This document shows, piece by piece, positions 21,092 through 53,229 of a stretch of 64,000 nt of DNA; the first letter of the stretch is position 1; the number at the start of each line of letters is the position of its first letter. The notes under the pieces were generated by a model. That model made no database searches and was not told where the DNA came from. It saw only the letters and a program-made list of their open reading frames with translations. The stretch is from Sideroxydans lithotrophicus ES-1 (GTDB taxonomy: Bacteria; Pseudomonadota; Gammaproteobacteria; Burkholderiales; Gallionellaceae): contig NC_013959.1 in assembly GCF_000025705.1 (NCBI RefSeq), positions 1,293,063 to 1,357,062 on the forward strand, given 5' to 3'. The position numbers were made by a program, and so were the translations under genes.

Positions 21092-21736
21092 ATGCAGCAA
21101 GTAAATGCAAATCATGCCGGCAAAGATGAACAGGCAGCAGTGAAGGTGTGGGACCGGTTCCTCCGGTTCTTCCACTGGACGCTGGTGCTGTGCTTTGCGA
21201 CAGCTTTCATTTCGGGTGAGGTGCACTTGTCCGAGATACATGTGCTGGTCGGGTATGTGCTGTGTGTATTGCTGGCGGCCAGGCTGTTTTGGGGATTCAA
21301 AGGCAGCGAATATGCGCGCTTCCGCGCCTTTATCTTTCCTGTCAGCGAGGCTATCGAGTATCTGCGCTCGATGCTCAAGGGTAACCCCAAACATTATTAC
21401 GGACATAACCCGGCAGGCGCATTGATGGTGTTCACGCTGTTCGGGTTGCTGGCGGCGATATTTGTGTCGGGCCTGCTTACTCTGGGTACCATAGACTTCG
21501 AAGGGCCATTGGTCTTCCTGGCGAACCGGGTGACTGACGAGTCCAGCTATGCGTTTCGCCATGTCCACGAATTTCTTCCCAACGTGGCACTTGCGTTGGT
21601 AGTACTGCACCTTCTGGGTGTATTGGTTGGCAGCATCCAGCACAAGGAAAATCTTGTGAGGGCGATGATCACCGGGAAGAAATCACCACCAAAGCAATCA
21701 AGTTCCAGCAGTCAAAACGATAAAGAGGAGAGTTAA
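21092..21736 (+). CDS. Cytochrome b561-type membrane cytochrome of the SHP/DHC operon
   Basis: A 214-aa protein with four transmembrane helices and heme-ligand histidines in the usual places: FLRFFHWTLVLCF (helix 1), SEIHVLVGYVL (helix 2), and FRHVHEFLPNVALALVVLHLLGVLVGS (helices 3-4). It is of the Ni-Fe hydrogenase/b561 type that passes quinol electrons to periplasmic cytochromes. The start at 21092 (MQQVNANHAGKDE) is preferred; upstream in-frame codons look non-coding. It is the first gene of a run of four with gaps of 0, 12 and 17 bases (to 21737, 22376 and 22798). Established homologous operons pair this protein with DHC and SHP. Confidence 0.92.
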   Translation: MQQVNANHAGKDEQAAVKVWDRFLRFFHWTLVLCFATAFISGEVHLSEIHVLVGYVLCVLLAARLFWGFKGSEYARFRAFIFPVSEAIEYLRSMLKGNPKHYYGHNPAGALMVFTLFGLLAAIFVSGLLTLGTIDFEGPLVFLANRVTDESSYAFRHVHEFLPNVALALVVLHLLGVLVGSIQHKENLVRAMITGKKSPPKQSSSSSQNDKEES

Positions 21737-22363
21737 ATGAAGGGCATCCAGTTTATGAGTGCCGCCGTGCTGTGCTTGGCGGCTCTATCCGGGACGGCGT
21801 TCGCGCAGGAGTCGGCTTTCGATATGCCGCTGACATCCAGTGCGTATGTGAAGGACTATGAATCGTTCAAGCTTGCGGCAGCGAACGATACCGAAGTATC
21901 CGTGAAGAAGTCGAACAGCGCCGCCCCAGTGGTAGCCGCGACTCCATTCGAGCCCCCGTTGATCACGGGCGGCAAGGTGCACCAGTATCTCGGTCTTGGA
22001 ACCATCGTCCTGGCGGGATTGACGGCAGTGACAGCGCCGGGCGAAGGCTGCGAGACCAACTGTACGGCGCAGGCAAACCAGCCGCGCCAGACCAACGGTA
22101 CGCACGCCAAGCTGGCAAAGGCGACCGTTGCGATGGCTGCAGCAGCCATCACCACAGGCCTGATCACGCACTGGGACGATTTCCATCTGGCGGACGGCAT
22201 CACCGATCCTGATAATCTGCATATACTGCTGGGCGTGACCGGCGCTGCACTGATGGCTTATGCCGTGAACAAGTCGAAGAATTCGACTGTGCCGGTCAGC
22301 CATGCAGGCATCGCCGAGATGGGCGCACTGGGCATGGTGGCTGCGATCAAGATCACCTGGTAA
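21737..22363 (+). CDS. Exported four-helix membrane protein with a His at each helix, unrecognised
   Basis: This 208-aa protein has a cleavable signal peptide (MKGIQFMSAAVLCLAALSGTAFA) and an Ala/Ser linker to about residue 70. Four hydrophobic helices each begin with His: VHQYLGLGTIVLAGL, THAKLAKATVAMAAAA, LHILLGVTGAALMAY and SHAGIAEMGALGMVAA. Helix 2 also ends in THWDDFH, and the helix 1-2 loop holds CETNC. The pattern resembles membrane b-type cytochromes, with paired His on one face, but I recognise no family. It starts one base after the b561 stop and precedes SHP and DHC. A quinol- or cytochrome-linked heme protein is the working guess; a structural subunit is the alternative. Confidence 0.75.
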   Translation: MKGIQFMSAAVLCLAALSGTAFAQESAFDMPLTSSAYVKDYESFKLAAANDTEVSVKKSNSAAPVVAATPFEPPLITGGKVHQYLGLGTIVLAGLTAVTAPGEGCETNCTAQANQPRQTNGTHAKLAKATVAMAAAAITTGLITHWDDFHLADGITDPDNLHILLGVTGAALMAYAVNKSKNSTVPVSHAGIAEMGALGMVAAIKITW

Positions 22364-22375
22364 CGGAGAGTGAGA

Positions 22376-22780
22376 ATGAAACCACTATTCACATTGATGG
22401 CGTTGATCGGCACGCTGGTCATGGCTTCCGCCGCATCGGCGACCCCCGCCAGCGACGAGCTGTTTGCCCGGTACAAGTCTGAGGGGGCTTCCGGTTTCGA
22501 CGCTGAACGCGGCAAAGCGGACTGGGCCAAAGAGGGCAAGGTCGAGGATGGCGTGAAGATGAATTGTTCGACTTGCCACGGCGACGACCTGCGCAAGCCT
22601 GGCAAGCACAAAAAGACCGGGAAGGTCATCGAGCCGATGGCTCCCAGCGTCAATCCGGAGCGCTTCACGGATGCCAAGAAGATCGAAAAATGGTTCAAGC
22701 GTAATTGCAATGACGCTTGGGGTCGCGAATGTACAGCGCAGGAAAAGGGCGATGTCCTTAAGTTCCTGCTGAGCAAGTGA
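22376..22780 (+). CDS. SHP-type (sphaeroides heme protein, DUF1924) cytochrome c
   Basis: A 134-aa periplasmic monoheme cytochrome: signal peptide ending SAASA, heme site CSTCHG, then KTGKVIEPMAPSVNPERF and EKWFKRNCNDAWGRECT. This strongly recalls Rhodobacter sphaeroides SHP, including the RNCN segment that provides the unusual Asn sixth ligand and the disulfide-forming cysteines. SHP binds oxygen and NO at its reduced heme. The ATG at 22376 with GGAGA seven bases ahead is preferred. Together with DHC and b561 it forms an electron chain from the quinone pool to a ligand-binding terminal heme. Confidence 0.9.
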   Translation: MKPLFTLMALIGTLVMASAASATPASDELFARYKSEGASGFDAERGKADWAKEGKVEDGVKMNCSTCHGDDLRKPGKHKKTGKVIEPMAPSVNPERFTDAKKIEKWFKRNCNDAWGRECTAQEKGDVLKFLLSK

Positions 22781-22797
22781 GGATCGGAGAGATGATG

Positions 22798-23355
22798 ATG
22801 CAAAATAAATTCAAAGCAGCTCTGTTGGCTGCAGCATTGCTGATGAGCAGCGGGGCAGCGATGGCGGAACAGAACTTCTGGCAATGGTTGGGCAACTTCT
22901 CGCGTCAAAAAGGCGTGCAACCGGTCGATAACAAGACCTACTCGGACGAGTGCGGCTCATGCCACTACGCCTACCCACCCGGCCTGTTGCCGAGCAAATC
23001 GTGGGCGAAGCTGCTGGACGAAAAGGCCTTGAACGATCACTTCGGCGAGAATGCTTCGCTGGACAAGGACACCCTGAAGACCATCTACGATTACGCGATG
23101 GACAATGCCGCGGAGAAATCCTGGTACAAGCGTTCGCGCAAGATCGCGCTGGCGACCGAAGACGGCGATGCTCCGATACGTATCACCGAGGTGAGTTACA
23201 TCAAGCGCAAGCACCACGACATCCCGGAGAAGATGATCAAGGGCAACAAGGATGTCAAATCCCTGAGCTACTGCAACGCATGCCACACCAAAGCTGACAA
23301 GGGCATCTTCGACAGCGACACCGTGTCCATCCCGAACTATCCTGACTGGGATTGA
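22798..23355 (+). CDS. Diheme cytochrome c (DHC)
   Basis: A 185-aa periplasmic protein: signal peptide ending GAAMA, first heme site CGSCHYAYPPGLLPSKSW, second heme site CNACHTKADKG near the C-terminus. The YPPGLLP and KRKHHDIPEKM segments are typical of DHC, the known electron donor to SHP. Three ATGs lie in a row at 22792, 22795 and 22798; spacing from GGAG favours the last (MQNKFK). It is the last gene of the four-gene run and is followed by a terminator 24 bases on. Confidence 0.92.
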   Translation: MQNKFKAALLAAALLMSSGAAMAEQNFWQWLGNFSRQKGVQPVDNKTYSDECGSCHYAYPPGLLPSKSWAKLLDEKALNDHFGENASLDKDTLKTIYDYAMDNAAEKSWYKRSRKIALATEDGDAPIRITEVSYIKRKHHDIPEKMIKGNKDVKSLSYCNACHTKADKGIFDSDTVSIPNYPDWD

Positions 23356-23378
23356 TGCAGCTTAGATGTGTAAACATG

Positions 23379-23405
23379 AAGGGCAGCCTGGGCTGCCCTT
23401 TTTGT
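23379..23405 (+). terminator. Rho-independent terminator of the cytochrome operon
   Basis: The stem AAGGGCAGCC / GGCTGCCCTT is followed by a run of T on the plus strand. It lies between the DHC stop and the hslO promoter region. Confidence 0.85.
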
Positions 23406-43166: not shown

Positions 43167-43326
43167 GTCACATCAAGTGTGTCGATCGTTGTTTGTTGGC
43201 AGCCCGTTTCAACTATAGCAAACTCGAATCAAAGGCGTTCACCTGAATTCCTGCATACCAGGTAGTTCAGTTATTTGCCCGGGCGTATACTTCGGCAGGA
43301 AGGCGGCATCCATGGAGGGAGGACAT

Positions 43327-43626
43327 ATGTTCTGTAGACTGATTACCATCGTACTGTTCATTTTGATCGGGAGCATCGGAGTTGCAGGTGCCCAGCCGAT
43401 GCGAGATCCTCAACGAGGAGAGCTGTTGTATTCGACCCATTGCATAGCCTGCCATAACACCAAGATACATTGGCGCGACCAGAAACTTTCCAAAGACTTC
43501 AAGAGTCTGTCTGCTCAAGTGGATCGCTGGCAAAAATTGGCAGGGCTGGGTTGGGATAGTCATGACATTACTGCGGTGGCACGCTATCTCAATGTCCTTT
43601 ATTACCATTATCCAGAATCATACTGA
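43327..43626 (+). CDS. Small periplasmic monoheme cytochrome c without Met ligand
   Basis: A 99-aa protein with a signal peptide ending GVAGA and one heme site, STHCIACHNTKIHWRDQKLSKD. No Met follows the heme site, so the sixth ligand must be His, Lys or absent. The WRDxKL...VxRWQ...ARYLNxLYYxYP pattern matches a small betaproteobacterial cytochrome group of unknown role. The ATG at 43327 is chosen because it gives a normal signal peptide. It lies 50 bases before gloA; a functional link is not evident. Confidence 0.85.
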   Translation: MFCRLITIVLFILIGSIGVAGAQPMRDPQRGELLYSTHCIACHNTKIHWRDQKLSKDFKSLSAQVDRWQKLAGLGWDSHDITAVARYLNVLYYHYPESY

Positions 43627-52851: not shown

Positions 52852-53229
52852 TTACTTGGCGAGACCCAAGATAAACTCGACCAATTCCTTCATGTCGCCT
52901 TGCTTCTTGCCGGATGGGTCATTAGGAACCATCGCTGCGGAACCCCAGTTACCATGGCCGCCCTTGGAAACCTTCACCATCAGGCCTTCAACCAGAGGAT
53001 ATTCCTTGGCATCGGCAGCTGCCGAACCGTTGTTCGAATACTTGTATGTTGTAGCGCCCTTGTACTTCTTGGCTACATCAGCCCAAGCTGGGCCAACCAC
53101 CTTGTGATCGATTGCGTGGCAAGCTGTACAGCCATTTTTCTTGGCTACAGCAGGCATCTCGGCTGCCATTGCGCTACCTGCAATCATCAAGCCTGCTGCT
53201 ACTGTTATGTTTACGATAAAAGATTTCAT
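52852..53229 (-). CDS. Periplasmic class I cytochrome c (c551/c552 type)
   Basis: A 125-aa protein with a signal peptide ending GSAMA, heme site GCTACHAIDHKVVGPAW and the Met-ligand region GGHGNWGSAAMVPNDPS, both typical of cytochrome c551/c552. It carries electrons between periplasmic oxidoreductases and terminal oxidases. It is a single gene with a bidirectional terminator at its 3' end. Its A/T-rich upstream region lies in a 437-base gap. Confidence 0.94.
   Translation of the reverse strand: MKSFIVNITVAAGLMIAGSAMAAEMPAVAKKNGCTACHAIDHKVVGPAWADVAKKYKGATTYKYSNNGSAAADAKEYPLVEGLMVKVSKGGHGNWGSAAMVPNDPSGKKQGDMKELVEFILGLAK

Follow-up and report, generated by a model that had tools for sequence, protein, structure and literature searches.

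The irc ("iron responsive cluster") genes of Sideroxydans lithotrophicus ES-1 lie in a 64,000-nucleotide stretch of the genome, referred to here as the window. The cluster consists of four genes in the order IrcD-IrcC-IrcB-IrcA, separated by gaps of 0, 12, and 11 nucleotides and followed by a hairpin resembling an intrinsic terminator (Table 1). An initial annotation, made from the DNA letters, had placed the four genes and the terminator in the same way and had read them as an electron-transfer operon of cytochrome b561, SHP-type cytochrome c, and diheme cytochrome c (DHC), with an unrecognized four-helix membrane protein inserted. The inserted protein, IrcC, is the main subject here, together with its partners and its possible role. 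ATG starts were chosen for the coordinates, and earlier TTG or GTG starts are also possible for the first, third, and fourth genes.

Table 1. Window coordinates of the irc genes, of the conserved residues discussed in the text, and of the downstream hairpin
Feature	Position	Strand	Support
IrcD (Slit_1321), prokaryotic cytochrome b561-type membrane cytochrome	21092..21736	+	PF01292, E 4.3e-27
IrcC (Slit_1322), 208 amino acids, signal peptide, four predicted helices, five invariant His	21737..22363	+	no family over cut-off
IrcC His82, near start of helix 1, predicted periplasmic side	21980..21982	+	96/96 rows
IrcC His123, start of helix 2, predicted cytoplasmic side	22103..22105	+	95/95 readable rows
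IrcC His145, end of helix 2, predicted periplasmic side	22169..22171	+	95/95 readable rows
IrcC His162, near start of helix 3, predicted periplasmic side	22220..22222	+	95/95 readable rows
IrcC His189, just before helix 4, predicted cytoplasmic side	22301..22303	+	95/95 readable rows
IrcB (Slit_1323), SHP-type monoheme cytochrome c, CSTCH heme site	22376..22780	+	DUF1924, E 3.3e-43
IrcB Asn110, aligned to SHP heme ligand Asn88	22703..22705	+	65/65 readable rows
IrcA (Slit_1324), predicted periplasmic DHC	22792..23355	+	PF09626, E 3.3e-35
Intrinsic-terminator-like hairpin, 10-pair stem and T tail	23378..23401	+	

The hairpin has the longest stem of the seven terminator-like sites found in the scan, compared with a mean of 3.1 sites in shuffled sequences. 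A scan with a simple consensus found no sigma-70-like site upstream of ircD, and inspection of the gap upstream of the cluster for inverted repeats gave nothing decisive. We infer that the irc genes form one transcript. The gene for Hsp33 lies 3' of the terminator and is thereby separated from the irc genes in the window, so it was rejected as a member of the unit.

The three cytochrome assignments of the initial annotation are borne out by family scores over the cut-offs: IrcD reaches 95.5 bits against PF01292 (cut-off 30.1), IrcB 146.4 bits against DUF1924 (curated cut-off 22.5), and IrcA 122 bits against the DHC family (cut-off 22.2). IrcA has CXXCH sites at residues 54 and 161 and aligns with solved DHCs over both of them (PDB 3u99, E 6e-33). 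In IrcD, His28, His50, His105, His159, His173, and His184 are invariant in a 26-row alignment. IrcB aligns with the solved SHP of Rhodobacter sphaeroides (PDB 1dw0, E 5.1e-25) and also matches the cytochrome c'' structure 1e8e (E 6.6e-17). In the SHP alignment, the first N of RNCN, the segment singled out by the annotation as containing the rare Asn heme ligand, falls on residue 88 of the solved protein. This Asn is kept in all readable rows of an alignment of the SHP genes found near IrcC (66 rows including ES-1, one of them cut), and so are Cys111, which directly follows it, and Cys119. On sequence grounds IrcB is a true SHP, with Asn110 predicted by alignment to ligate the heme and the two cysteines predicted to form a disulfide. 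Having the make-up of an Asn-ligated SHP, IrcB may bind O2 or NO and therefore may not be a plain electron shuttle.

The cluster itself is already known, and the publications are cited here for the parts of their text that were available. Slit_1321-1325 have been listed as genes for a cytochrome b, a hypothetical extracellular protein, a monoheme cytochrome c, a diheme cytochrome c, and a heat shock protein, and were reported to be highly expressed and induced by Fe(II) (PMC8788666). The name ircABCD was given later, with IrcC described as a hypothetical inner-membrane protein. In the same study, irc expression was raised in lactate-grown cells able to oxidize iron, homologues were reported in Leptothrix cholodnii, Rhodoferax, and several Zetaproteobacteria, and the irc genes were proposed as markers of iron-oxidation activity (PMC12442390). 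Co-location of the irc genes has been described in 50 Gallionellaceae genomes (PMC10734462), and all four proteins have been detected by proteomics, although Slit_1321 and Slit_1322 have values of zero in one of eight columns of a table (PMC12016527). The published irc cluster agrees with that in the window in its genes and their order, and grcI/grcJ of Ghiorsea also belong to the closest known systems. The cluster is therefore not new, while IrcC is still called hypothetical and IrcB only a monoheme class I cytochrome in the published descriptions. The term SHP is absent from the main text of PMC12442390, neither an SHP identity for IrcB nor a function for IrcC was found in the available text of these irc papers, and no mention of the cluster was found in the available text of PMC13390432 and PMC12607638. 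The SHP identity, the five-histidine pattern of IrcC, the IrcC-DHC pair, and the layouts lacking b561 are added here.

The irc cluster shares with the SHP/DHC/cytochrome b operons of Rhodobacter, Shewanella, and Allochromatium the Asn at the ligand position, the DHC, a PF01292-type cytochrome b, and the tight spacing (PMC2909971), and differs from the classic operon in having the extra membrane gene, as the annotation had noted. In Allochromatium, the genes for DUF1924, DHC, and b561, along with a neighboring gene for a "membrane protein-like protein", rise on pyrite (PMC11267869). The order also differs, being b561-IrcC-SHP-DHC in irc and SHP-DHC-b561 in the mapped relatives of the order that have no IrcC, where a b561 gene was found.

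DHC as the constant neighbor of IrcC

The neighbors of IrcC were examined in 77 loci from a named genome collection, scored with profile models of the four Irc proteins. These loci come mostly from Gallionellaceae, Gallionella, Sideroxydans, and unnamed Nitrosomonadales or Proteobacteria bins, with two from Mariprofundaceae, one each from Oxalobacteraceae and Ectothiorhodospiraceae, and several from bins titled Gammaproteobacteria. The commonest layout is that of ES-1, b561-IrcC-SHP-DHC (38 loci), followed by SHP-DHC-b561-IrcC-DHC (12), SHP-b561-IrcC-DHC (6), and IrcC-DHC only (5). The remaining loci show b561-IrcC-DHC, IrcC alone, or b561-IrcC-SHP (3 each), SHP-IrcC-DHC (2), and five other layouts found once each. 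In 70 of the 77 loci, a DHC gene lies 3' of IrcC in the same orientation and no more than 1 kb away, with or without SHP in between. In five of the seven misses (L088, L096, L110, L119, and L131) the contig ends less than 600 bases away, so that the pairing holds in 70 of 72 testable loci. SHP was found in 65 loci and b561 in 64. Homologues of the four-helix gene therefore do not occur mostly away from SHP and DHC. Five of the 12 loci lacking SHP are contig ends, while the other seven extend for 3 kb or more in both directions; some of the b561 absences are likewise contig ends. Four of the IrcC-DHC-only loci have at least 4.6 kb on each side, and the fifth (L130) has 0.7 kb downstream. Since DHC is kept in loci without SHP, the IrcC-DHC pair needs no SHP beside it. 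The constant pair is IrcC and DHC; b561 and SHP come and go. The initial annotation was right that an extra gene is present, but its picture of an insertion into a constant trio does not hold, as the 12 loci with the second layout place IrcC-DHC after a complete SHP-DHC-b561 set.

The real exceptions to the pairing are L090 (5926-6585) and L103 (5962-6567), whose IrcC genes have no DHC, SHP, or b561 nearby. The helicase-like gene upstream of IrcC in L090 is shared with L083, where IrcC-DHC is kept, and DHC may therefore have been lost in L090. Hsp33 was found in 24 of the 77 loci; by the coordinates, it adjoins the cluster in six, lies within 1 kb in one, and is about 2-2.5 kb off in 17.

A further view of the pairing comes from Mariprofundaceae, with 18 loci taken from 24 genomes that carry IrcC; two of these loci (L158 and L170) repeat L128 and L138 of the named collection. 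SHP follows IrcC in all 18 loci, and DHC is present in all 16 where the contig allows. The b561 gene adjoins IrcC in four loci, is not found in about 1 kb or more of upstream sequence in 12, and cannot be scored in two that are cut. Judged from gene positions, eight of the 24 genomes have a PF01292 gene next to IrcC. With 12 of the 16 testable loci lacking an upstream b561, IrcC can be the sole local membrane component. PF01292 genes occur somewhere in 23 of the 24 genomes, however, and a b561 could therefore still act from a distance.

The ES-1 genome also holds a second SHP-DHC pair at 991 kb (L150 3573-6664; G000:C1 about 989-992 kb, minus strand), and no relative of IrcC or b561 was found in the 12-kb stretch around it. 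As read from the proteins, this pair is followed by a response regulator and a histidine kinase, whereas no sensor kinase stands beside the irc copy. The IrcC-free copy fits a view of SHP-DHC as a module usable with or without IrcC. A third DHC gene lies at 2.61 Mb.

In the order to which ES-1 belongs, DUF1924 was found in 67 of 250 genomes and IrcC in only five, each time just 5' of a DUF1924 gene. Most genomes of the order with SHP thus have no IrcC. Within the family of ES-1, 74 of 158 genomes were found to carry IrcC (G368 on no more than a weak partial match, E 7.9e-5), 123 DUF1924, and 117 Cyc2. SHP is present in 71 of the 74 genomes with IrcC and in 52 of the 84 without it; for Cyc2 the corresponding counts are 66 of 74 and 51 of 84 (Fisher P 4.8e-5), all of these being uncorrected for kinship or genome completeness. 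Despite this association, Cyc2 was rejected as the sole explanation of the IrcC distribution, since it is more widespread than IrcC. Three genomes of one genus (G221, G260, and G261; g3) carry a Cyc2 homologue and neither DUF1924 nor IrcC. The ES-1 genome has three tandem cytochrome-porin genes (L153 3590-8680), which we take to be Cyc2-like from their motif and position.

A profile search of a phylum-wide sample found IrcC in 26 of 398 genomes from two families, two genomes from the family of ES-1 and 24 from a second family (f75, Mariprofundaceae). Two of the f75 loci are identical in DNA to Mariprofundaceae contigs, L158 to L128 over 3150 bases and L170 to L138 over 3549. Among 61 genomes around one f75 genome, IrcC was found in 20, all of them among the 37 that belong to f75, and in none of the 24 others. 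The gammaproteobacterial bins and other titles in the named collection indicate that IrcC is not strictly confined to the two families.

These counts bear on the possibility that the whole cluster is an ordinary SHP pathway running from quinol through b561 and DHC to SHP, for O2 or NO chemistry or detoxification, with IrcC a minor lineage-specific addition. The SHP, DHC, and b561 proteins are all orthodox, such a chain has been published for the trio (PMC2909971), and nearly all IrcC genomes of the family carry SHP. Even so, we consider this very unlikely, because no SHP turned up in the neighborhood of IrcC in 12 of the 77 loci and no b561 in 13, while DHC is missing from only two of the 72 testable ones.

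Helix-end histidines of IrcC

IrcC begins with a signal peptide, and four helices are predicted in its mature part. The AlphaFold2 model of mature IrcC, built with 78 rows, has a predicted local distance difference test score (pLDDT) of 91 and a predicted template modeling score (pTM) of 0.82. The modeled helices span residues 78-98, 122-144, 158-182, and 190-207, with an additional N-terminal helix over the signal peptide, so that the four-helix description of the initial annotation is true of the mature protein. The five histidines listed in Table 1 sit at helix ends in the model. They are invariant among 28 close homologues and likewise in alignments of 78 and then 96 rows, the largest of which includes one cut row (L131) and two rows that are DNA duplicates. 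Only 12 positions are invariant in the 151 residues of the mature part, and five of these are histidines, from a total of six in this part of the ES-1 protein. The corresponding hypergeometric P of 7.5e-6 serves only as a guide, since the rows share ancestry. A glycine follows a histidine at i+4 or i+7 (residues 86, 169, and 196) or precedes it by four (residue 141), a spacing that could leave room for a heme. Asp148 and Asp159 are also invariant, and Asp157 is kept in 75 of 77 readable rows.

Whether or not the signal peptide is cleaved, the chain would enter the periplasm before helix 1. His82, His145, and His162 would then face the periplasm, and His123 and His189 the cytoplasm. The strongly acidic character of the loop that joins helices 2 and 3 agrees with its predicted outside location.

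Two cysteines, Cys105 and Cys109, lie in the loop between helices 1 and 2 (window 22049-22063); they are common in near relatives and missing from many distant homologues. A conserved redox pair of the family was rejected for these residues, which are cysteine in 54 and 53 of the 96 rows.

Candidate roles of IrcC

The five invariant helix-end histidines suggest that IrcC is a membrane b-type cytochrome, and the other three Irc proteins are all cytochromes. With moderate confidence, we propose that IrcC is a four-helix b-type cytochrome of the inner membrane and the dedicated partner of IrcA, in a single electron-transfer operon of an Fe(II) oxidizer in which IrcD and SHP are optional. Most likely, one heme would be held near the periplasm by His82 and His162, with His145 next to it, and a second near the cytoplasm by His123 and His189. 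In their order at the helix starts, and in the placement of the fifth where the second core helix ends, the histidines resemble the two-heme TM2-TM5 transmembrane core of eukaryotic b561. Likewise, His145 lies 22 residues after His123, a spacing reminiscent of that between a heme ligand and the substrate-side histidine in human Dcytb. Electrons would pass between IrcA and the membrane through IrcC, to or from the quinone pool or across the bilayer. IrcD would then be a second, optional entry to the membrane, and IrcB an optional O2- or NO-reactive end point fed by IrcA.

The initial annotation had drawn the chain from quinol to b561, DHC, and SHP, which matches the published proposal for the trio (PMC2909971), and had assumed a microaerophilic host, as ES-1 indeed is (PMC3770913). 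In an Fe(II) oxidizer, electrons may flow in either direction, and the IrcC-IrcA pair could run the opposite way, from periplasm to quinone. A title cited by PMC2909971 terms the DHCs of R. sphaeroides low-potential, which makes an easy downhill step from Fe(II) to IrcA less likely.

Several observations weigh against a cytochrome IrcC. The protein was predicted to be extracellular in PMC8788666. The loop charges agree with the proposed topology only in part: the segment that joins helices 1 and 2 carries a net negative charge in spite of its inside placement, and the one that joins helices 3 and 4 is roughly neutral. Helix 3 shows only mild hydrophobicity, with a mean of 0.28. No Pfam family matches IrcC over its cut-off. 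In favor of a cytochrome, the commonest weak matches of its members, at E up to 1 in the case of PF03188, are to multi-helix membrane families (PF03188 in 25 of 78, DUF420 in 12, PF01292 in 11, and DUF4079 in 8), three of which are cytochrome-b-like. For the eukaryotic-type b561 family PF03188, the best member reaches 18.9 bits (E 0.0019) against a cut-off of 23 and the ES-1 protein has no match at all in the Pfam scan, so membership is not supported; the alignments also fall in differing registers and are therefore no proof of homology. Bacterial PF03188 proteins for a profile comparison were sought in 249 genomes, where seven genomes had weak matches, four of them over the cut-off, and this set was not used. 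Membership in PF01292 was rejected at 14.4 bits against 30.1, as was homology to the neighboring IrcD (hhalign probability 0.6%, BLASTP chance matches only).

Structural comparison likewise gave no clear link. No cytochrome b was among the results of IrcC profile searches of PDB, and Foldseek searches with two models gave no match at E < 0.1. Cytochrome b561 was absent from the best 50 of 392 and the best 50 of 276 Foldseek matches, and the top matches are multi-helix chains that carry no heme, among them oxidase subunit III and TRPV channels. IrcC is thus not recognizably in any named family, and descent from b561 or another known cytochrome b is not supported by the homology tests. It is nevertheless likely that IrcC works in the manner of a membrane cytochrome b; that it binds heme through these ligand pairs, in this topology and in contact with quinone, is what we infer.

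The five histidines could instead bind metal, and IrcC could be an iron- or copper-binding membrane protein or sensor whose histidines, for example, report Fe(II) or protect the periplasmic cytochromes. His82, His145, and His162 cluster with the acidic Asp148, Asp159, and Asp157 on the predicted periplasmic side, and the host lives on Fe(II) with an operon that responds to it (PMC8788666). We regard this role as rather unlikely, since the invariant His123 and His189 sit at the opposite helix ends, as expected for a second heme, and the constant partner is a c-type cytochrome, neither a regulator nor a transporter.

The lack of a detectable relation to known cytochromes b, together with the strict pairing with DHC, would also suit a heme-free anchor or assembly factor for DHC (and SHP), with all membrane electron transfer left to b561, which a distant PF01292 protein could provide in nearly all of the Mariprofundaceae genomes with IrcC. 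An anchor would have no need of five invariant helix-end histidines, however, and most of the testable Mariprofundaceae loci have no adjoining b561, so this appears quite unlikely.

If IrcC is a cytochrome and the dedicated partner of IrcA, its pairing with DHC and its cytochrome-like ligand set give the hypothetical member of the cluster a concrete, testable role. The passage of Fe(II) electrons from periplasm to quinone pool is a gap in the proposed pathways of neutrophilic iron oxidizers. A broader version would make IrcC the first member of a new family of membrane-spanning b-type cytochromes with two hemes. IrcC-DHC would then be a dedicated branch of Fe(II) oxidation in microaerophiles that depends on neither b561 nor SHP and links periplasmic cytochromes and the quinone pool in two distant classes of iron oxidizers. 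This version is unlikely as a whole. Were it true, the branch would serve the uphill electron transport that NADH formation and CO2 fixation require. We suggest ircC and ircA as a candidate marker pair for iron-oxidation activity.

Other small genes in the window

A 125-residue monoheme cytochrome c with a signal peptide is encoded at window 52852-53229 on the minus strand. From its position, it may be Slit_1353. Slit_1353 has been described as an iron-responsive, strongly expressed cytochrome (PMC8788666). Finally, a small protein of 104 amino acids with a signal peptide and one CXXCH is encoded at window 43312-43626 on the plus strand.

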